Below, piece after piece: positions 10,460 through 44,809 of a DNA stretch of 46,593 nt. Numbering within the stretch: position 1 is the first letter of the stretch; each line of letters starts with the position of its first letter. Location: assembly GCA_006503475.1 (NCBI GenBank), contig RSEH01000325.1, positions 1-46,593 of the forward strand. Direction: 5' to 3'. The position numbers and the translations under genes are program-made. Source of the DNA: Stentor roeselii. Its lineage: Eukaryota; Ciliophora; Heterotrichea; Heterotrichida; Stentoridae. Below the pieces are notes generated by a model. It was not told where the DNA came from and did no database searches. It saw nothing but the letters and a program-made list of their open reading frames with translations.

Positions 10460-13400
10460 TCATTTTCCCTTCAACCCAAAGGAACTTTCAAAGCTCTTTC
10501 CAAAAAGCTTCTTATCAACAACAGCATCCCAGACCTTTGTCTTCGCCCTGACCCATTGAGACTTCGGCACATGAGGCCTTCTAAGCCTTCCTTCTTCCAA
10601 GTCCTTGATTTTCAAGTACAAATCACGAAACATTTCCTTTGAATTGACCAGGTCGAAGTTCTTAACAGGGTCGATTCCAAGATTTTTCCAGATTTGATTG
10701 CAAACTTCTCTAACATTAACAATTTTTATCTGCTGTATTTCAGTCCTTTCACGAATTTGCAAGACTTTACTTTTGCTAGTTTCTAGAAGGTCAATCAAAT
10801 CGATGTAATTTTTTGGTTCTTCTTCTTTTTCTGGTTTGGTTTTCAGAGATTTTAAATATTTTAACTTTTCTTCAAGATGAGACTTTTCGTTTTGAAGGTC
10901 TGTTAAATTTTTAGATAACTCGTTTTTCTGATGAAGAAGTTCGGAGTAGTTCTGAAACTTAAAAATCATTGCGTTTATGTCGAGTCCTTGGAAGTCTTTA
11001 CTTGAACTGACGATTTTTTTAATGGATTCTTCGAATTTTTCGACTTTTGACTCTAAACTCGCTTTGACCTGAATGACTTTTTTGATATTCGCCCTTCTTG
11101 ACTTGATTTTTTCAGCAAGGCTTGATGAAGGCTCAACTTCAGGAGTCATCAGCAGAAGTTTACGTCGATTAAACCCATGCACGATAGACTTGTTGATAAA
11201 AGCGTTTAAAGAGTACTTCTCTGAAAGTTTTGTTAAAGTTGAAGTCCCTGCTGAGCGTTTTTCATTGATGGCTGATTTTAATTCGTTGTACTTGCCAAGA
11301 TAGACAAAAGTGTCTTTTTCGTATTGTTCAATGCATAAACTTTCAGATCGAATGAAAGATGAGCAGACGTCGATGGCTTTGATCATGTCATTATTCCATT
11401 CTTTTATAAAAGGTGGATTTTTTTCACAGCTTTCAACGATTTTCTGAAGAAAATCAACCTCAGCCTGTGCAAGGACAACTTTTTCTAAACTTTTATTTGA
11501 CTGGTACTGCAAATTCGCGAATTTTTGAAGAACTTCTTCTTTTTCAAGTGATTTGGCTTTTAACAATCCTATTTGTGTAGCGATATTTTCTATTTCTTTA
11601 ACTTTAAAAGCATGAATTTCTCGTAGTTTATTAAACTGCTGTTGAAGTTTCTGTGTTTCTTTAAATTTTTTTTTTAGTTCAGCTTCTGAAAACCTGACAA
11701 GTTGTGAGTTGAGTTTTAGAAGGACTGTATTGATTCCTGTGTCTTTTAATGAAAAGTTGATTGAGTAGGTCTCAGGTCTTGCATCAGGAAGTGTGGATTG
11801 ACTGAAAGAGCTGATGAAAGACTTGTTGACTGTCTGAGAGTCTTGAATGACTTCTGCTTGACTGATTTTTCGTTTAATCCCGAAGTTGGTCCTAATCATC
11901 TGCAGTGAATTTCCTCTCGACAACAGTGGCTTCGTCGTATTCGGCCTTGAAAGACCTTTGCCTGGACTCGGGTCAATTATTTTCAAAAGACTTTCAAAGA
12001 TTCCTTGCTCCACATCCTGAGGAACACCGACTGGCCCTCTTAAACTCGCGAGTAAGGCAGAAGGGTTCACATTGGCACTGAGTGCAATAAGAGGAAACTG
12101 TATCCAAAACCATCTCTTATAATGATAAAATTCCGCTGAAATCACTGAATTTTTCTTTGAATTATCCAAGTTCATCTTCACTACTATTTCTCTTAATTCA
12201 TTTCTTGAACTTTCCTGAAACATACGAAGTTCATTGTCAAAAAGAGGACTTTCAGGGCTTTTATTGAAAACTGCTGAGATTTTTTCAGCTTCTTGGAAAA
12301 GGTTGACCTGTTCGAGACTTTCCTGATGGATTAATGGGTAGTTCCTGAAGTTTACACTTTTTGGACTTTCCAGAAGGCCGTAATCGTCGAAGAAACAGAA
12401 GAAGTTTATTACAAGGTTCACGATTTCTTCTGGTTTTAGAAGAGGGTGGTTTGAGATGAAGTCTTCGATTGACTTGTTGTATTCTTCGACTGGGTCGAAG
12501 CCGTTCTTTTCCAGGTCTTGCCAAAGAGAGCATAGTTCAATTTTCTGTCTTGTGTTAAACATGTTGATGAAGACATGAATGCTGCGAACTCGGTCTTTTA
12601 AACGTTTCCAGTCTTTACTGACTTTTAAAGCGTTTAGCAGCTCGTTAACGCGAAAAAAGCTGTTTTTTTCTTCTAAAACCAGAGAAATTTCCCTAGCAAG
12701 CACTTCAGGGCACTCGATTTCAAGACAGTCACGGAAGATTGAATTGGAAAAACAGTAAAATTCTTCTTGTTTTATCAAACAACAGTCAAAAATCGTTAAC
12801 ACCTTGCTAGTGAGCTTCAAAGAAACACCTGAACTTAAAGCGATCTCTTCTTTTGAAAGGTTATTTTTGCATAGTTTCAGCACAGAAAGAACTTTTTTAA
12901 TCTTCTGGCTGCAGCTTGAAGCGAAAAATCGCGTCGCATAAATAAATAAAGACTCGACATTCGCGATTTCTTTATAAGTCGGTATCACAAACTTGGTAGT
13001 TTTAGGAAAAGAAGACAAAGACCAAAAAAGTAGAAGTTTCATAAAAAGTGGGTTTGAAGTAGATTGATTTTCTCTTAAACAAATTTGAAATTCTTCCAAA
13101 TTAGACGATTTTAACAGTTCAGGCCATTTAGAAGTCCAGTCATTTAACACCCTGAACCTGTACTTTCGACGCAGTTCAGGCACTTTTAACACCTTGCAAA
13201 GCGGGGAAAGAAACCGAAAGGCTTCTGAGTTTTCTCTGCAGGTGTAAATAAGGCGAATGTTCTCAGGGATGACTACCGGCAGCCACTCTGCAGTGTCTTC
13301 TCGCCCGTTGCTTATTTTGTACTGGTCTACCCCGTCAAATATTATAACAACGCATTTTCGTGTCTTTTTCGGCATCGGCAACGAGTGACTTGTTTCGAAA

Positions 13401-13738
13401 AGTTTGGAAAATTGAGTCCTTAAACGTTCTTCTTTTACTGAAAGTTTCAAGTTTAACTCGTATTCTTTACGTAAAGAGTCTAGGATGTTGAATAAGGTTT
13501 GACTGAATGATGGGCAGGAACTCAGACCAGGGTTCTCGTAGATGATTAGGTTGTTGTCTTTGGAATTGTACTCACGGTGGTAAGTTAACCACTTCGAGAT
13601 CAGTGAAGACTTTCCTGAACCTGCTGGACCTGCTATTAGAAGAGGAGTTGATTGAGAAAAGTCTTCTTGTTTGAAGTTTGCTACCCAGAAGTCTATTGAT
13701 TGGATTAGTTTTGTGTCGAATTGGAGGTTGGATGTCAT
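10460..13738 (-). CDS. STAND/NACHT-type P-loop NTPase with long coiled coil
   Basis: 1092 aa from the ATG at 13738; a longer frame upstream would need TTG. Residues about 8-180 form a P-loop NTPase: Walker A GPAGSGKSS (37-45), Walker B VVIIFDGVDQ (130-139), then NIRLIYTCRE resembling a sensor strand. The layout is closest to the STAND module of nephrocystin-3-like proteins. Residues about 260-380 look like a winged-helix/helical region. The centre is Ser-rich. Residues about 690-1035 alternate long charged coiled-coil segments. No TPR or WD repeats are visible, unlike animal NPHP3 or typical NLRs. STAND proteins act as ATP-dependent switches or scaffolds; NPHP3 works at the ciliary transition zone, but assigning this one to cilia is a guess. 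All P-loop residues are present. Confidence 0.8.
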   Translation of the reverse strand: MTSNLQFDTKLIQSIDFWVANFKQEDFSQSTPLLIAGPAGSGKSSLISKWLTYHREYNSKDNNLIIYENPGLSSCPSFSQTLFNILDSLRKEYELNLKLSVKEERLRTQFSKLFETSHSLPMPKKTRKCVVIIFDGVDQYKISNGREDTAEWLPVVIPENIRLIYTCRENSEAFRFLSPLCKVLKVPELRRKYRFRVLNDWTSKWPELLKSSNLEEFQICLRENQSTSNPLFMKLLLFWSLSSFPKTTKFVIPTYKEIANVESLFIYATRFFASSCSQKIKKVLSVLKLCKNNLSKEEIALSSGVSLKLTSKVLTIFDCCLIKQEEFYCFSNSIFRDCLEIECPEVLAREISLVLEEKNSFFRVNELLNALKVSKDWKRLKDRVRSIHVFINMFNTRQKIELCSLWQDLEKNGFDPVEEYNKSIEDFISNHPLLKPEEIVNLVINFFCFFDDYGLLESPKSVNFRNYPLIHQESLEQVNLFQEAEKISAVFNKSPESPLFDNELRMFQESSRNELREIVVKMNLDNSKKNSVISAEFYHYKRWFWIQFPLIALSANVNPSALLASLRGPVGVPQDVEQGIFESLLKIIDPSPGKGLSRPNTTKPLLSRGNSLQMIRTNFGIKRKISQAEVIQDSQTVNKSFISSFSQSTLPDARPETYSINFSLKDTGINTVLLKLNSQLVRFSEAELKKKFKETQKLQQQFNKLREIHAFKVKEIENIATQIGLLKAKSLEKEEVLQKFANLQYQSNKSLEKVVLAQAEVDFLQKIVESCEKNPPFIKEWNNDMIKAIDVCSSFIRSESLCIEQYEKDTFVYLGKYNELKSAINEKRSAGTSTLTKLSEKYSLNAFINKSIVHGFNRRKLLLMTPEVEPSSSLAEKIKSRRANIKKVIQVKASLESKVEKFEESIKKIVSSSKDFQGLDINAMIFKFQNYSELLHQKNELSKNLTDLQNEKSHLEEKLKYLKSLKTKPEKEEEPKNYIDLIDLLETSKSKVLQIRERTEIQQIKIVNVREVCNQIWKNLGIDPVKNFDLVNSKEMFRDLYLKIKDLEEGRLRRPHVPKSQWVRAKTKVWDAVVDKKLFGKSFESSFGLKGK

Positions 13739-13812
13739 AAGGTTATCCAAAAAATCTAATTGGCTCCTACGTTAAAATTACTCATACAGCATTTTGCTAA
13801 TCATGGTTATAA

Positions 13813-27612: not shown

Positions 27613-29784
27613 TCAATGATAATGAGAAAATCGAGTTTCAATCATTTGTTTTTCACTAAGTCCAAGCTGATGACAGTTCAAATTCCTCCTATGAACCGGT
27701 AAATTAACATCAATAAAATGCTGTTTAAGTTCCTCATACTTCAAAATCTTATAATTAGAAGGAAACAAAACAACCTGCGCGGGTAAATTTTTATGTAAAG
27801 AGCTGACATCCTTAAGTCTTTCCTGCAGCATTAAATAAGCTTTAGAGTTAGGCAAAATCATTAAAATCGCATAAAGACTCTTAAGTAAAAAAGGTTGTTT
27901 ATAATGTTCCAAAAGCTGCAACCTAACATCTGTTCATCTCTTACACATAAAAGCAGGCGAATTCAAAAAGAACACAAATTTCGCAAGTTGTGTTAAAAGT
28001 TCAGCAGTGATTTTACACCTCGAGCTAATTACCCCTTACAGCAACTGCAGGATTTCATAGCTAAGTTCATAAGCCTGGACTAAAAACGTAAGACAAAGTG
28101 CAGAAACCGGGTTTTGACACCAAGTTTTAAACAAAATTTCAAATAATTCAATACATTCCTCATCTTCTCTTTCTAAACAACTCTTAAGTCTTTCCCGCAA
28201 AGCTTCTAAAGATGCATCAGTTAAGAGCAGGTCATTGATGATCGCGATCATCCTTTCCCTGAACTTTTGCTCACTCTGTAATAAAAGTAAATTCGCGAAA
28301 TTTTGAAGAACTTTTTCAGTTCCCAGCTCTTGACAAAGCACTTTTATCATCATTTTCGCTTTTTCCTGCATCAAGTTTGAATTCGTGCAAAAGAGTCTAA
28401 GAAGGTTGTGAATGACTTTTGTGAAGTACCCTTTGTATTCAGCAACTTTACATAAAACCTGAAGAATACTTTCAAAAATTACTTCTGTCGCTGAAGGTAG
28501 TCTTGCTGCGAGACTATCAAGTAAAATTCCTAGTTTTGACTCGATACTTTCAGGTAAAATCGCCTGTAAAGCGAGAATCCATTCAAGAGTGACCTTCTGA
28601 GTGACGATTGACTCATGGTTGATGAAAACCATGAAGATATCAACAATGTCTTCATATTGACTGATAGTAGTTTCTCGACTCGTTGTTTTCATGAATTTCA
28701 TCAATTTTGTATTCACCTTCGACGCTTTAGCGGCGATTAAAGGCGTTTTATCCGCGATGCACTGAAGAGCAGATTTTAAAATAGTAGGAAAGATCTTAAA
28801 AAGCACCTTATCCGACTTATCAAGAAGGTCAGAAGTCCAGACAATAGCTTCTGTCCGAACGTTTTCATCTGAATTCGCTGAAAACTTCGAAAGTGTTTCC
28901 ATTACGAACAACAAGTCGTATTCTCCATGACTCGCTGCAAGGACTTCAATAAGCAAGTCTTTTGAGAAGTTATAAGCCACTTTTCGCACGTTTTCATAAC
29001 GAGACCCTAACAAGTTGAAAAGTCCTTCAAAGTAACAGTGAAGGTGACTCACAACTGAATAGTTCGGAATCGAATCAAGCACCACGACCCAAGAGATGAG
29101 AAGGATTTGAACATTGGCATTATGAGAAGTTATCAACATTTCTTTCACAAGTGTCATGAATTTAAAAGAGTTGAAAATTGATCCGTCAGCTTCACATTCA
29201 ACTATCAAAGTTTTTAAAAGAAGGTCTAATTTTTCAACTGCTTTTTTCACGTTTAAGTCGTTGTCTGCGAAAAGCTCGGTCATTGGTTTGAAGATCTGGT
29301 CGAATAGAAGAAGGACTTGACTTCTGCATATTTTACTTATGTTGTACATGCTTTCAACGGCAGCGTATCGGATTTTACTGTCAGGGTCACGGAAACAGAA
29401 GAGGACTGGGTTGATCAAGTAACTGACAAGAGGTGTTAAATCATCACTGAGCATTATCGTTGAAGAAAGGGCAGAAAAAGCCATAAGTCCTGCCTTTTTA
29501 AGCACATCAGAGTTATTTTCAATGTACTCAGTCCTAAACAAATCAACAGCATTTCTAATCATTGCAAAATTTCCTCTTTCCACGAAAACCGTCAGAATTT
29601 TATGAAGTTCATTTCCAGCTTGTTTACGTTTATCGTAGTTTTTATCGATCAGCATCTTTAAAACATTCGCAGGAATTTCACGTTTTACTGGAAAAGTTTG
29701 ACTGGCAGTGCTGAGAAGCCTTTCAGTCATCGCACCGACAGAGACTTCAGAATCAGACCTTTCAACGAGTGGCCTGTTTGACAT
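27613..29784 (-). CDS. VAC14: VAC14 homologue (PIKfyve-complex scaffold), three exons
   Basis: Exons 28040-29784, 27945-28024 and 27613-27929 give 713 aa, near the roughly 780 aa of human VAC14. The N-terminus is HEAT repeats (about 35-430), including DKNYDKRKQAGNELHKI and FCFRDPDSKIRYAAVESM. The conserved C-terminal VAC14/Fig4-binding region is split by two 15-nt introns; splicing restores NPVSALCLTFLVQAYELSY, then LTQLAKFVFFLNSPAFMYVR, then LQLLEHYKQPFLLKSLYAIL and MILPNSKAYLMLQERL. VAC14 oligomers hold the kinase PIKfyve/Fab1 and phosphatase Fig4 on endolysosomes to make and turn over PI(3,5)P2. An unspliced reading would lose this C-terminus. Starts 9 nt after the stop of the preceding same-strand gene. 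Confidence 0.95.
27930..27944 (-). other. 15-nt intron (second) in VAC14
   Basis: Minus-strand GTAAGAGATGAACAG, phase 1, with an in-frame TGA. Splicing rejoins SPAFM to YVRLQLLE as in VAC14 of other eukaryotes. Confidence 0.95.
28025..28039 (-). other. 15-nt intron (first) in VAC14
   Basis: Minus-strand GTAAGGGGTAATTAG, phase 2, giving TAA in the unspliced frame. Splicing joins YEILQLL to SRCKITAELL within the conserved domain. Confidence 0.95.
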
Positions 29785-29793
29785 TATTAAGAT

Positions 29794-40066: not shown

Positions 40067-40258
40067 ATTTTTTAAAGTTTTAATTCCACAAACTATTATT
40101 TCTTATAAAACCACTAATTCAAAACTAATTTCCTTAAAAAATTATTCCTAAAATAATTTCCTTAAAAAAAAATTACCTTCTGACCCATAGTCTATAATTT
40201 ATAATCCATTCTCTTATAAAACCTTAAATCTTTAACTCTTCTTTTCAAGTCTTTACAA

Positions 40259-42154
40259 ATGGAACCCTACTCAATAGCATACATTACGATCGTCACTTTC
40301 TCGCTGCTATTATCGTCATTTGTGCTGATAGTTCATTTGCTTATCCCAAAACTTTTACGTCCACCTGGCGATTTAATCTTTTGCCAGTCAATAGCTCAGG
40401 TAATGATCGATCTTCACTGGTACAGTGTCTTCTTTAGTGCTCAAGTGAATGAAGACAGTAAAATGTGCATGTTTACTGGGGCTATTACTGTCTTTTTCAC
40501 TACTTTTTCATCAAATTGCATCTTGTGCTTGTGTATTGAGATAACCTTTAAATTGGCGAACAGGATAAGCACTCATAACAAACTAAGGAGAATTATTTAT
40601 TATTCTGCGATGATTTCATTTTCATCGTTTCTTTTGATACTAGCTGCAGTTCACGGAGATTTCGGATATTCATCTATCGGATCATGTTCCTTAAAGCCAT
40701 CTTCAATAACCTCATACATAAGGCTATCAAATTTCGCAATCGATATAATAATCCAAATCGTGCTAATAATCCACATCCTAAAAAAAATCGGAAAAATCTA
40801 CTCAAAAGTGACTTTAAACTATTTCCTAGTAGTAGTATCCGATTCAGTTTTCATAATATTAGCGAATCTCCTCAAGTACATATCATACGCAATAAAAGAC
40901 CAAAATTCCAAATTAATCCTTCTCCAAATTTCCAGTTTCATAGCAGCAGGGACAGGAATAGCGATAGGTCTAAGCCGCCTTTACAACAAGCGCCTTTTAT
41001 CCGAACTTTTATGGAAGTTAAGAAAAAAACCAAAAGTTTCTCTTTCCCATTCAATAAATTCTCATCAATCAGAATCAGACAGTTCCTTATTAATGAGCAA
41101 CATCTACAACATGGGAGATTTATTTGAAAGTATAACCAGCAAGTCCTTAGCACAGATGTTGATAACAATTTTCATCAAATCTTCAGAGTACAAAATCGAA
41201 GTCGAACATGAAAACGAGTTTGATGAGTTTTTGTTTAACGAAGAAAACTTTAGAGAACTTTCTGGAGAGTTAGGGGTGAGGTCTATAAATGAAAGTAATT
41301 AAAATTCAGTATTTGTTCCTGGACTTTGCCTTGTTGAGTACTTGCCTAGTTACTTTGAAGAGATAAGGCAGGATATTGGTTTGAGCAATTCAGAGTTTTT
41401 CTTGTAGGTGTTAAACAGATCTTTTAGTTTACATGAAAATCTTGCAAAGATGCATTCGATTAAAAAAGCCTCTGGGGGTAGAAGTAATGCTACGATTTTT
41501 TTTACTAGTGACAATAAGTTCGTGGTGAAGACTATTACCAGGAAGGAAAGAAGGTTTTTTTTAAAGGAAATTATCCAGAAGTATCGAGAAAGGGTTAAAA
41601 ATTCCAGCTTTTTAGTCAGAATTGTTGCAGTTTTTAGACTAACACCTGCGAATGTCGACTATTTGATCATGGAAAACACGGTCAGTCAAATAGAAAAAGC
41701 TGTTGTTTTTGATATTAAAGGGTCCACTGTGAATAGAAAAGTTGATGTTTCCTTTGATTATCAACAACCGAGATATGGGTTACTGCTCAAAGACTTGAAT
41801 CTTATTGAAAGTAAATATGAACTGGTCTTGAGCAAGGAACAAAGCCAAGAAATGCTTTCAACTATTTTAAGTGATTTGGAAATGCTTCACTCGGTGGAAG
41901 CTACTGATTATTCTATTTTAATCTGCTTTTACCAGCCGGATTGCAAGTTCACGTCGAGATATGTGGTTCAAGGCACTTCCATGACATATGCTATCAGCAT
42001 CATTGATTTTTTGCAGGAATTTAACTTTTTCAAGAAATCTGAAAGATTATTCAAGAAAATCGTTTACGATTCTCAAGAAATATCAGTGGCTGAACCTGGA
42101 TTATACAAGTTACGATTGTTGAAGTTTTTTAGTGATTTGATAAAAATTTCTTGA
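40259..42154 (+). CDS. GPCR-PIP kinase fusion (7TM receptor plus phosphatidylinositol phosphate kinase), three exons
   Basis: Exons 40259-41294, 41310-41403 and 41419-42154 give 621 aa. Residues about 1-245 have seven membrane helices, with LLRPPGDLIF in the first loop, like the Pro-Gly-Asp loop seen in GPCR-PIPKs of Dictyostelium and oomycetes. After a Ser-rich linker the PIPK domain (about 300-621) has ATP-binding Lys414 in KFVVKT, DIKGSTVNR (475-483) and catalytic Asp540 in TDYSIL. The two introns fall in the kinase N-lobe; splicing restores VPGLCLVEYLPSYFEEI and the run into SFSLHENL, as in PIP5K/PIP4K proteins. Receptor and kinase in one chain would couple an external cue to PIP2 or PIP synthesis; ligand and lipid specificity are unknown. 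It lies 192 nt downstream of a decayed copy of itself. Confidence 0.94.
41295..41309 (+). other. 15-nt intron (first) in GPCR-PIPK
   Basis: GTAATTAAAATTCAG, phase 1, with in-frame TAA. Splicing continues the kinase N-lobe. Confidence 0.93.
41404..41418 (+). other. 15-nt intron (second) in GPCR-PIPK
   Basis: GTAGGTGTTAAACAG, phase 2, with in-frame TAG. Splicing restores SEFFLSFSLHENL, the conserved run before the PIPK glycine loop. Confidence 0.93.
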
Positions 42155-42238: not shown

Positions 42239-44809
42239 TTATTTAGAAATTTGAGCTTTAATAATAGGTGCCAAAGCATCACGAAGTGCATTATTCCTAC
42301 ATCTTACACTAAACTTAGCAGTACTTCCATTTCCTGTAATTCCCACTAAAAACATAACAAGTGTATCTTCAAACTGTCCAGCTCCAAGTATTTCAACCTG
42401 CGACAATTCAGAGATTTCATTATTAGAAAACAAGCAAAAACCCATAGTAAAGGTTAAAAAGCTGCACATTTCAGGAAAACTACTGAATTGAGCGAGTTGT
42501 ACAACAGAAGTATCTTCTTCAAAAACTAGTTTTTTCCATTCATTCCAAATACTTGTAGGAAGTTCTTGTCTTCCTTCTAAGAACCTCGCAACTGTCAAAG
42601 GCAGTTTCAAACAAAGTCGACAGGTTTCACCTGACTTGTTGATAACAGAAACCATTAATTTCGGTACTTTTGACGTGAAAGTCCCCAGCTGAGCTTTTAT
42701 CATTCTTGTTGTTTGCGCGTTTTGAAGGACTTCATCAGTAGTTCTTAAAGGTTGCATCATGATAGGAAAGCTTTCCATTGCCACATCTGAAAGTTCAGTT
42801 TGGACTTCGATGAAAGGCGTGGGTGACTTGTTGCCGATGAAGATCATGCAGAGGAGGTCAGTCGCTTGTCGCTTTATCTGAAAGCCGACTTGAACTACTT
42901 CACTGTCAAAAAGAACTCCCATTTCCATACAGTTTCCCATTCGGTAAAATAAGGAATTTTCAGCAGCCGGTTGAGAAATCGGTGAAGGTTTCGCTGGACT
43001 TACCTGAATTTCAAGATTTTCTTCTTTTTTTTTAGGTCCTAAAATAAAGTCAATGTCGAAATCATCGATTTTTTCCTGTTTTTTTTCTTTAGGCTCAGAA
43101 AAAAAAGGTTCTTGGACAGGGTTGAAAATTTGAGGATTTTCTTTTGATTTTTTTTCAGCTTGTTTTTTTTTCTCGAGTTTCTGTTGCAGGTAGTCGATGG
43201 CTTCTAAGGATTCTTTTAGTTCTTCATCTGTTTGTTGCTTTTCTATTTTCAGTCTCTCGATTTCTTTGTTCAGTCCAACGATGAGAGTATCTCGTTCAGC
43301 TAAGAGTTTTTTCGCTGTTTCAAGAGCTTCGAGAATCTGAGAGTTTTCTAGTTTTAACTTCGCTAAAGAAGGGTCTTCTCGCGAGTAGCTCGGGTCAAAT
43401 GAAAAATCTTCTCGTTTTTTAGGTTCTTGGAAAAATGGACGGTTTGATGACTCGAAGGACTTTTTTTCTTCTGGGAATAAAGAAGATCGTGTTTCTATTT
43501 TGACTGGCTCGGGGAAGAGGGAGGAAGTTTCAACAGATGCTTCTGGGAAAAGGGAAGACCTGGACTCTTTTTTTGGGTTTTCTGGGAATAAGGAATTTGT
43601 TGATTTTGCTTCAGGGAATGGAGAAATTGTTGCTTTCGGTTCAGGGAATAAGGAATTTGTTCCTTTCGCTTCAGGGAATGAAGAAATTGTTGCCTTGGCT
43701 TCAGGGAATAAAGAACTTGTTCCTTTCGCTTCAGGGAATAAAGAAGGCTCAGGGAATAAACTATTTTTTTCCCTTCCTGCCCTTTCAGGTCCATCTCCAC
43801 TAGGAAAAAGTGAATTCGATGCAGGAAACAAGTTCCCAGTAGTAAAACCACCTTTCCCTTTACTTTGAGGTTCCAAGACAATCGGCTGATGAGTGACGAA
43901 AGCAGAAGCTTTCGAGTTCTGAGCAGGCGAGATCTCCAAGTCAAACAAGTCAAAATTCGTATTCTTTTCAGGTCCAGATCGAAATCCAGGAGATCCAGTC
44001 ATAAAACTCGAGCTGTTTTTTCCTTCTGAAAGTCTTGGATACTTCTGATGAGAAGAAAGAGCAGCAGTGATTTTATCCATCAAATTCAATAAATTTTCAG
44101 TTTCCGCTTGATTTTCATGAGTCATCGCGACTTGCAAGGCATTTTCAATTGCAGGTTTCGCAGACCTTAGCATTTGTTTATACTCTTCAGTCATGGCAGG
44201 GTCCGAGCTTTCTTCAATCAACGTCAGAAGTTCTTCGATTTGTTCAGTTGCAGGAGATTTTCGAGAAATGCTGACTTTTCGCTCTTCCTTTACACGAGTT
44301 GGTTGTTTTGATGGGAATTTGACTCCTGATTCTTTGAGTTTATTGTAAGTGGTGAAAAAGATGCTGTCTGTCTTATCTGGCGCTTTGCCGAAGTCAGAAG
44401 CCCAGTTCTTTATGTAGTCTAATAAACAGGTTATGAACTCTAAAGATGCTGAACGGTTCTCTTGGCTTTGACTTGAGTCTTTGAAGATTGTCTCTGCTCG
44501 AAGCTCGATTGACTGGTCTTTCTTGTGAGATGCCAGGATTGAAAGACGGGACATTATTTTCTTTCCGGTGAAGAGAAGAAGTTGAACGTTTCCTACGAGC
44601 ATCAAAGTGTTCAGGGCTTTTAAGGCTCGTAACTTTTGGCTTGGTGGAGAACTTTTGGACTTTATTGTCTTTTTTATGTGGGAGATCACTTCTTTTATCA
44701 CTGGAAGCTTGGATGAACGGATCAGGTCTGCTAGGAGAGGGCATTGCTTTTTGTATTCTTCTTCGGAGAATAGGGCTTGTTTTAGCATGTCGACTGGCTT
44801 GAGACTCAT
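42239..44809 (-). CDS. GGA/TOM1-like adaptor: VHS, GAT, LFP-repeat linker, coiled coil and AP-2-alpha-type appendage
   Basis: 856 aa. Residues about 1-165 read as a VHS superhelix (LLADLIRSSKLP, KLRALKALNTLMLV, FFTTYNKLKESGVKFP). Residues about 187-255 form a GAT-like three-helix region (EQIEELLTLIEES, LLNLMDKITAALSSHQ). LFDLE (288-292) fits a clathrin box. Residues 326-446 contain 12 x-F-P motifs, mostly SLFPE. A coiled coil spans about 483-555. Residues about 615-856 resemble an adaptin ear: a beta-sandwich, then a platform part with LPLTVARFLEG followed by IWNEWKKL, like AP-2 alpha's LPITLNKF...WKQL. GGAs have VHS-GAT-hinge and a gamma ear without platform; this pairing with an alpha-type ear is unlike any I know. 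Inferred role: clathrin coat adaptor. Domain calls at both ends are by eye. Confidence 0.8.
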   Translation of the reverse strand: MSLKPVDMLKQALFSEEEYKKQCPLLADLIRSSKLPVIKEVISHIKKTIKSKSSPPSQKLRALKALNTLMLVGNVQLLLFTGKKIMSRLSILASHKKDQSIELRAETIFKDSSQSQENRSASLEFITCLLDYIKNWASDFGKAPDKTDSIFFTTYNKLKESGVKFPSKQPTRVKEERKVSISRKSPATEQIEELLTLIEESSDPAMTEEYKQMLRSAKPAIENALQVAMTHENQAETENLLNLMDKITAALSSHQKYPRLSEGKNSSSFMTGSPGFRSGPEKNTNFDLFDLEISPAQNSKASAFVTHQPIVLEPQSKGKGGFTTGNLFPASNSLFPSGDGPERAGREKNSLFPEPSLFPEAKGTSSLFPEAKATISSFPEAKGTNSLFPEPKATISPFPEAKSTNSLFPENPKKESRSSLFPEASVETSSLFPEPVKIETRSSLFPEEKKSFESSNRPFFQEPKKREDFSFDPSYSREDPSLAKLKLENSQILEALETAKKLLAERDTLIVGLNKEIERLKIEKQQTDEELKESLEAIDYLQQKLEKKKQAEKKSKENPQIFNPVQEPFFSEPKEKKQEKIDDFDIDFILGPKKKEENLEIQVSPAKPSPISQPAAENSLFYRMGNCMEMGVLFDSEVVQVGFQIKRQATDLLCMIFIGNKSPTPFIEVQTELSDVAMESFPIMMQPLRTTDEVLQNAQTTRMIKAQLGTFTSKVPKLMVSVINKSGETCRLCLKLPLTVARFLEGRQELPTSIWNEWKKLVFEEDTSVVQLAQFSSFPEMCSFLTFTMGFCLFSNNEISELSQVEILGAGQFEDTLVMFLVGITGNGSTAKFSVRCRNNALRDALAPIIKAQISK
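43472..43834 (-). repeat. LFP motif array in the adaptor hinge
   Basis: Coding repeats for 12 xFP motifs (10 LFP, one SFP, one PFP). Within 43570-43760 about 60-nt units, each of two motifs (such as SLFPEAKGT then SSFPEAKAT), are nearly identical at DNA level, so the array expanded recently by tandem duplication. Confidence 0.9.

Follow-up and report, generated by a model that had tools for sequence, protein, structure and literature searches.

What kind of adaptor is encoded by a ciliate gene that appears to join a VHS-type head to an ear like that of the AP-2 alpha subunit, and how old is such a protein? The gene lies in the window analysed here, the whole 46,593-nucleotide stretch of Stentor roeselii contig RSEH01000325.1, and a first-pass annotation had interpreted it as a GGA-like adaptor invented independently by heterotrichs. 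The coordinates then given (42239..44809) were correct, but the strand was left unstated. The gene is on the minus strand, with a methionine codon at 44809, a TAA at 42239-42241 and 856 codons without an in-frame stop; stop codons are numerous in plus-strand frame 1. A frame with a PIP5K domain ends at 42154, tail to tail with the adaptor gene. Pfam lists three matches to the adaptor protein at E ≤ 10 and Adaptin_N is not among them, which makes it a stand-alone protein without an adaptin trunk. The predicted features are:

42239..44809, minus strand: whole gene, encoding an 856-aa VHS-(GAT-like)-hinge-coiled coil-alpha ear protein (open frame and paralogues)
44300..44809, minus strand: VHS-type head, residues 1-170 (hhalign against VHS, shuffles, PDB profile matches)
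44024..44251, minus strand: tentative GAT-like helical segment, residues ~187-262 (hhalign against GAT, phmmer)
43934..43948, minus strand: clathrin-box motif LFDLE, residues 288-292 (motif scan)
43469..43834, minus strand: hinge array of 10 LFP motifs (8 as SLFPE) plus SFP and PFP variants, residues ~326-447 (motif scan)
43148..43360, minus strand: probable coiled coil, residues ~484-554 (read from the sequence, family profile, heptad score)
42242..42952, minus strand: AP-2-alpha-type ear, residues 620-856, with the sequence match extending to ~763 (profile against AP-2 alpha chains)

A search of the organism's own genome with the adaptor returned 14 match rows at 10 places, the adaptor gene included. 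Seven further genes are full length and uninterrupted (C13, C38, C10, C76, C54, C279 and C1), and a mammalian alpha-ear query added the paralogue C100. The two halves of C100 are in frame and separated by a single TAG inside the 15-nt GTAAAAAACATGTAG; once this element is removed, the frame is open for 640 aa. Heterotrich introns are 15 nt long, and we infer that GTAAAAAACATGTAG is one of them. Profiles built without C100 find its head (34 bits) and its ear (59 bits), compared with 4 and 9 bits for the best of 60 shuffles. Head and ear are kept in eight of the ten paralogues that were re-read (the seven uninterrupted genes, and C100 via its putative 15-nt intron), and the other two are earless. 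With the adaptor gene itself, nine genes carry both parts, which argues against two frames having fused by chance. A reading as two separate genes or a chimaeric frame was also rejected because eight uninterrupted genes share the same head-to-ear order. Thus, profiles and paralogues bear out the original proposal that a VHS-type head and an AP-2-alpha-type ear occur in one chain. A possible 15-nt intron near residue 627 was ruled out because its removal would cut the conserved beginning of the ear. The genes C233 and C166 (L016 and L017) code for a VHS-type head (51 and 49 bits, respectively) followed by a coiled-coil-like tail, with no ear.

Proteins of similar layout have been described in other alveolates. 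Based on structure prediction, Plasmodium KIC4 has a VHS domain, a GAT domain and an adaptin appendage, 'an arrangement typical for GGAs'; the same report describes KIC4 as a GGA-AP beta hybrid, with TgKAE as its homologue (PMC10718435). The bifurcation of AP-2alpha and KAE 'is in all alveolates', according to the part of the Toxoplasma study on which we draw (PMC10105704). By these published descriptions, KIC4 is like the Stentor protein in standing alone without Adaptin_N and in having a VHS domain and an adaptin appendage, and Toxoplasma KAE (TGME49_272600) in standing alone without Adaptin_N and in having a C-terminal alpha-type ear and a coiled coil. The Stentor protein differs from these adaptors of the K13 compartment in its nine copies, in the SLFPE array of its hinge and in a GAT domain that is not established; furthermore, K13 itself is reported to be apparently absent from ciliates (PMC10105704, in the part cited). 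By analogy with these descriptions, from which its putative orthology is read, the gene is quite likely a heterotrich member of the KIC4/KAE-type adaptors of alveolates. Most simply read, the gene belongs to a family that spans the alveolates and has multiplied in this ciliate. The same kind of protein in malaria and Toxoplasma parasites suggests an old alveolate feature rather than a ciliate invention.

The first-pass annotation had instead proposed that a TOM1-type head and an AP-2-alpha-type ear were joined independently in heterotrichs. TOM1-type VHS-GAT proteins have a similar VHS head but no ear, and a canonical gene of this type (C142) is present as a separate gene in this genome and could have been the donor. 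The comparison made here also covers a single ciliate genome. However, the same layout in KIC4 and the naming of KAE as its homologue (PMC10718435), together with the split reported in all alveolates (PMC10105704), leave an independent invention unsupported as far as the cited parts of these papers go. Furthermore, the other ears of the family are 17-46% identical to this ear, which fits an old family. A separate fusion in heterotrichs appears improbable, and on present evidence the earlier interpretation was right on the parts and wrong on the history.

The relationship of the ear to AP-2 alpha was examined with the single sequence and with profiles. The protein alone scores 21.5 bits with Pfam Alpha_adaptinC2, below the family cut-off of 27.6, and finds AP-2 alpha appendages in PDB with an E of 9.7e-7. 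A profile of eight ears finds seven AP-2 alpha chains (E of 2.3e-19 to 3.3e-18), and the other two of its nine PDB matches at E ≤ 10 are the ears of GGA1 (0.0022) and GGA2 (0.2). The match spans residues ~620 to 763, which cover the sandwich lobe and the beginning of the platform; for the final ~90 residues (the outer part of the platform lobe), the profile comparisons gave no match to a known platform. A search with PF02296 gave nothing in this genome and is uninformative because the controls also gave nothing. Judged from these profiles, the predicted ear belongs to the alpha type over its first lobe and the beginning of the second, and to that extent the ear type first assigned to it was correct. 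The adaptor is thus like the AP-2 alpha subunit in the sequence of its ear and unlike it in having no Adaptin_N trunk.

The order of the head, the clathrin-box hinge and the C-terminal ear is also that of GGAs (VHS-GAT-hinge-GAE), and GGA1 provides the best non-alpha match of the ear profile. Hence the label 'GGA-like' is apt for the layout, but it is highly improbable that ciliates kept or acquired a true GGA here, meaning a trans-Golgi adaptor that combines VHS and GAT with a gamma ear. The ear is 16 orders of magnitude nearer to AP-2 alpha in E-value (2e-19 versus 0.002 for GGA1) and, at about 240 aa, has a two-lobe length, versus ~120 aa for a GAE domain. A probable coiled coil further sets the protein apart from GGAs, and its GAT domain is not established. 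The gamma ear of GGAs has also been described as an opisthokont acquisition (PMC3473312, in the part cited), in agreement with the first-pass annotation.

The candidate GAT domain is the segment at residues ~187-262. Its single-sequence matches are weak (Pfam E of 4.1; phmmer to TOM1 GAT E of 0.71). In profile-profile comparisons with GAT, hhalign gave 55% for a six-member profile and 35% for an eight-member one, and both scores exceeded all 100 shuffles in each test; with the six-member set, the score also topped those of helical decoys. In PDB, the family profile of the region brought up 20 sequences, among them many designed helical proteins but no GAT. The likeness of the segment to GAT is suggestive only, and of the 'VHS and GAT-like domains' proposed at first, the VHS domain is supported and the GAT-like one is tentative.

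Pfam does not list VHS for the single adaptor sequence at E ≤ 10, and the paralogue C13 has a weak, co-linear VHS match (E of 0.052). A profile of eight heads found seven PDB sequences at E ≤ 10. Four of the seven are VHS domains, including the top three (E-values of 0.048-0.34), none significant alone, and two are CLASP chains. Profile-profile alignments to a VHS profile of seven sequences (two from this genome and five from PDB) gave hhalign values of 96.8% for eleven heads (131 columns) and 97.0% for eight (117 columns), compared with 4.6% and 2.3%, respectively, against this genome's ENTH domains. As a yardstick, the true superfamily pair of VHS and ENTH gave 56%. The head-VHS scores (65 and 68) were reached by none of the 100 column shuffles in each test (maximum of 16.7), reversal gave 11-13, and 24 decoy windows of adaptin helical solenoid did not exceed 5.5% in hhalign. 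These comparisons identify the predicted head as VHS-type, as the first-pass annotation had it. A head made of another alpha-alpha superhelix (ENTH, ANTH or TOG/HEAT) would fit the CLASP chains and the weak ENTH matches of C1 (E of 0.093) and C13 (E of 0.72). Yet the contrast between 97% for VHS and 2-5% for ENTH, the low values of the solenoid decoys and an alignment that runs through to the WA..F and FP end of the VHS domain make such a head very unlikely and led us to reject it, in a comparison that covered ENTH and helical solenoids. A beta-adaptin-like ear, the type proposed for KIC4, whose predicted structure led to its final subdomain being labelled a beta-adaptin appendage (PMC10718435, in the part cited), is very unlikely here too, with no beta appendage among the nine PDB matches and hhalign values of 0.2-7.4% to this genome's own beta platforms, which leave a beta-type platform unsupported.

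Between head and ear, a motif scan confirmed the clathrin box LFDLE noted earlier and found ILNLD in the hinge of C38 and ILDLE in that of C10. The LFP motif occurs 10 times in exact form, and the 12 copies first counted are reached only by including SFP and PFP. SLFPE was observed 8 times versus 0.0025 expected, a count that none of 2000 shuffles reached. The array overlaps a DNA tandem repeat of 30/60 nt (43580-43745) and is not conserved, the ten paralogues examined having 0 or 1 LFP each; for these reasons it probably expanded recently in this gene. TLFPD and SFFPD, which resemble the SLFPE array of the adaptor, occur in C63 (L057), an Eps15-like protein that has two EH domains. The family profile has weak matches to coiled-coil chains near residues ~484-554. 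A crude heptad score peaks at ~490-517 in this protein and is not a specific test, because the peak falls elsewhere in the paralogues.

Alignment of the ear places W755, W758 and F657 at positions F837, W840 and F740 of mammalian AP-2 alpha, which are ligand-pocket residues of that ear. Six of the nine ears have tryptophan at the W840 position, two have phenylalanine and one has a gap; three ears carry an aromatic residue at the F740 position. Because these positions vary, binding specificity probably differs between members of the family. Plain counts in 13 Eps15-like, epsin-like and other EH/ENTH proteins gave WxxF in 4, DPF/W in 3 and FxDxF in 1, with no WxxF in the two proteins that have two EH domains. 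Thus, canonical ear-binding motifs are sparse in the EH/ENTH proteins of this genome by counts that carry no statistics. In Toxoplasma, it is the KAE ear and not TgAP-2alpha that binds TgEps15L, by way of WxxF (PMC10105704, in the part cited).

Is there still an ear on the AP-2 complex of this organism? Adaptin_N has 22 matches in the genome, 13 of them strong. One of these proteins, C295, scores 406 bits with AP-2 alpha trunks versus 200 with gamma and 146 with AP-4 epsilon, and by these scores it is an AP-2 alpha, the only one identified in this genome. It has 639 aa with Adaptin_N alone in Pfam and ends in VSVDLLDL followed by TAG, right after the trunk; a 513-aa open frame on the opposite strand ends about a dozen bases beyond this stop. 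The ear profile found no ear behind the stop in six frames of a 6.5-kb stretch (best E of 0.13). As a positive control, the same profile detected the ear of AP-1 gamma when run on the stretch with that gene (E of 7.8e-6). A mammalian alpha-ear fragment matched eight places in the genome at E ≤ 10, seven of them family members and one an unrelated frame (E of 0.14), in a search of limited sensitivity, since it missed the ears of C10 and C76. We rejected a second AP-2 alpha among the earless trunks because C131 is an AP-4 epsilon and C417 is nearest to AP-1 gamma; this rejection holds for the assembled genome and for the trunks searched one by one, a set outside which C103, C23 and C390 lie. The AP-2 alpha of this organism seems, from these searches, to have lost its ear, and its trunk and the alpha-type ears are encoded by separate genes. 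The situation is like that described for Toxoplasma, in the published parts on which we draw, where the AP-2 alpha ear is degenerate beside KAE; here, no AP-2 alpha ear was found in these searches.

Other trunks were noted in the same survey. C131 (L040) scores 409 bits as AP-4 epsilon and is 63% identical over 649 aa to C441 (L038). C441 and C131, two large subunits of AP-4 epsilon type, end in LLDL and LLEL, respectively; as for the AP-2 alpha of this genome, no ear was found. C417 (L043:3838-5523) is a 562-aa adaptin trunk closest to AP-1 gamma (156 bits) and without hinge or ear.

Elsewhere in the window, positions 40220-42154 of the plus strand contain two consecutive frames. The first looks like a multi-helix membrane protein and has no Pfam match at E ≤ 0.001, and the second has the PIP5K domain (E of 1.3e-45). 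The 15-nt GTAATTAAAATTCAG between them could be an intron, and the two frames possibly encode a receptor-PIP kinase fusion, which we take to be a known type of protein. A 1103-aa frame at 10463-13771 (minus strand) matches an NPHP3_N/NACHT-type ATPase (best E of 1.8e-5), and a Vac14 homologue is encoded at 28039-29793 (minus strand; E of 3.4e-27). Vac14 is a scaffold of the PI(3,5)P2 kinase complex. The stops of 22 genes of the window and of G000 are 13 TAA and 9 TAG; the lack of TGA among them is a hint that this organism may not read it as a stop. Together with the one inferred 15-nt intron, this would suit a heterotrich, for example Blepharisma.

In the proposed mechanism, the VHS head, perhaps together with the GAT-like segment, would bind cargo, ubiquitin or membrane, and the LFDLE motif of the hinge would bind the clathrin terminal domain. 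The coiled coil may make oligomers, and the ear would recruit accessory endocytic factors. In animals, this recruitment is the job of the AP-2 alpha ear. The AP-2 alpha of this organism appears to end at the trunk, and every binding step of the mechanism, like the place of action of the adaptor, is inferred. Disruption of KIC4 in Plasmodium trophozoites caused no detected defect in endocytosis (PMC10718435, in the part cited). Tentatively, the AP-2 alpha ear could have moved off the complex and been copied onto nine exchangeable VHS-headed adaptors, giving the cell a choice of monomeric 'plug-in' ears that recruit endocytic accessory factors. Such an event would be the alpha counterpart of the one that produced GGAs and would have taken place in the alveolate ancestor, with later diversification in heterotrichs; we regard this scenario as possible and somewhat doubtful.

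As far as the literature searched goes, the nine copies, the earless AP-2 alpha and the sequence-level evidence for a VHS head in a ciliate are new, and the sections of PMC10105704 beyond those cited may already include members from ciliates along with their AP-2 alpha. An ear whose first lobe and early second lobe are predicted to be of the alpha type bears on the beta-type label given to KIC4. More broadly, the Stentor protein links KIC4/KAE, an oddity relevant to malaria, with a free-living ciliate. With K13 reported as apparently absent from ciliates (PMC10105704, in the part cited), the VHS-plus-alpha-ear adaptor would predate both parasitism and K13. An apparently earless AP-2 alpha beside nine ear-bearing adaptors would also make Stentor a free-living cell in which to test whether ears can do their recruiting in trans.
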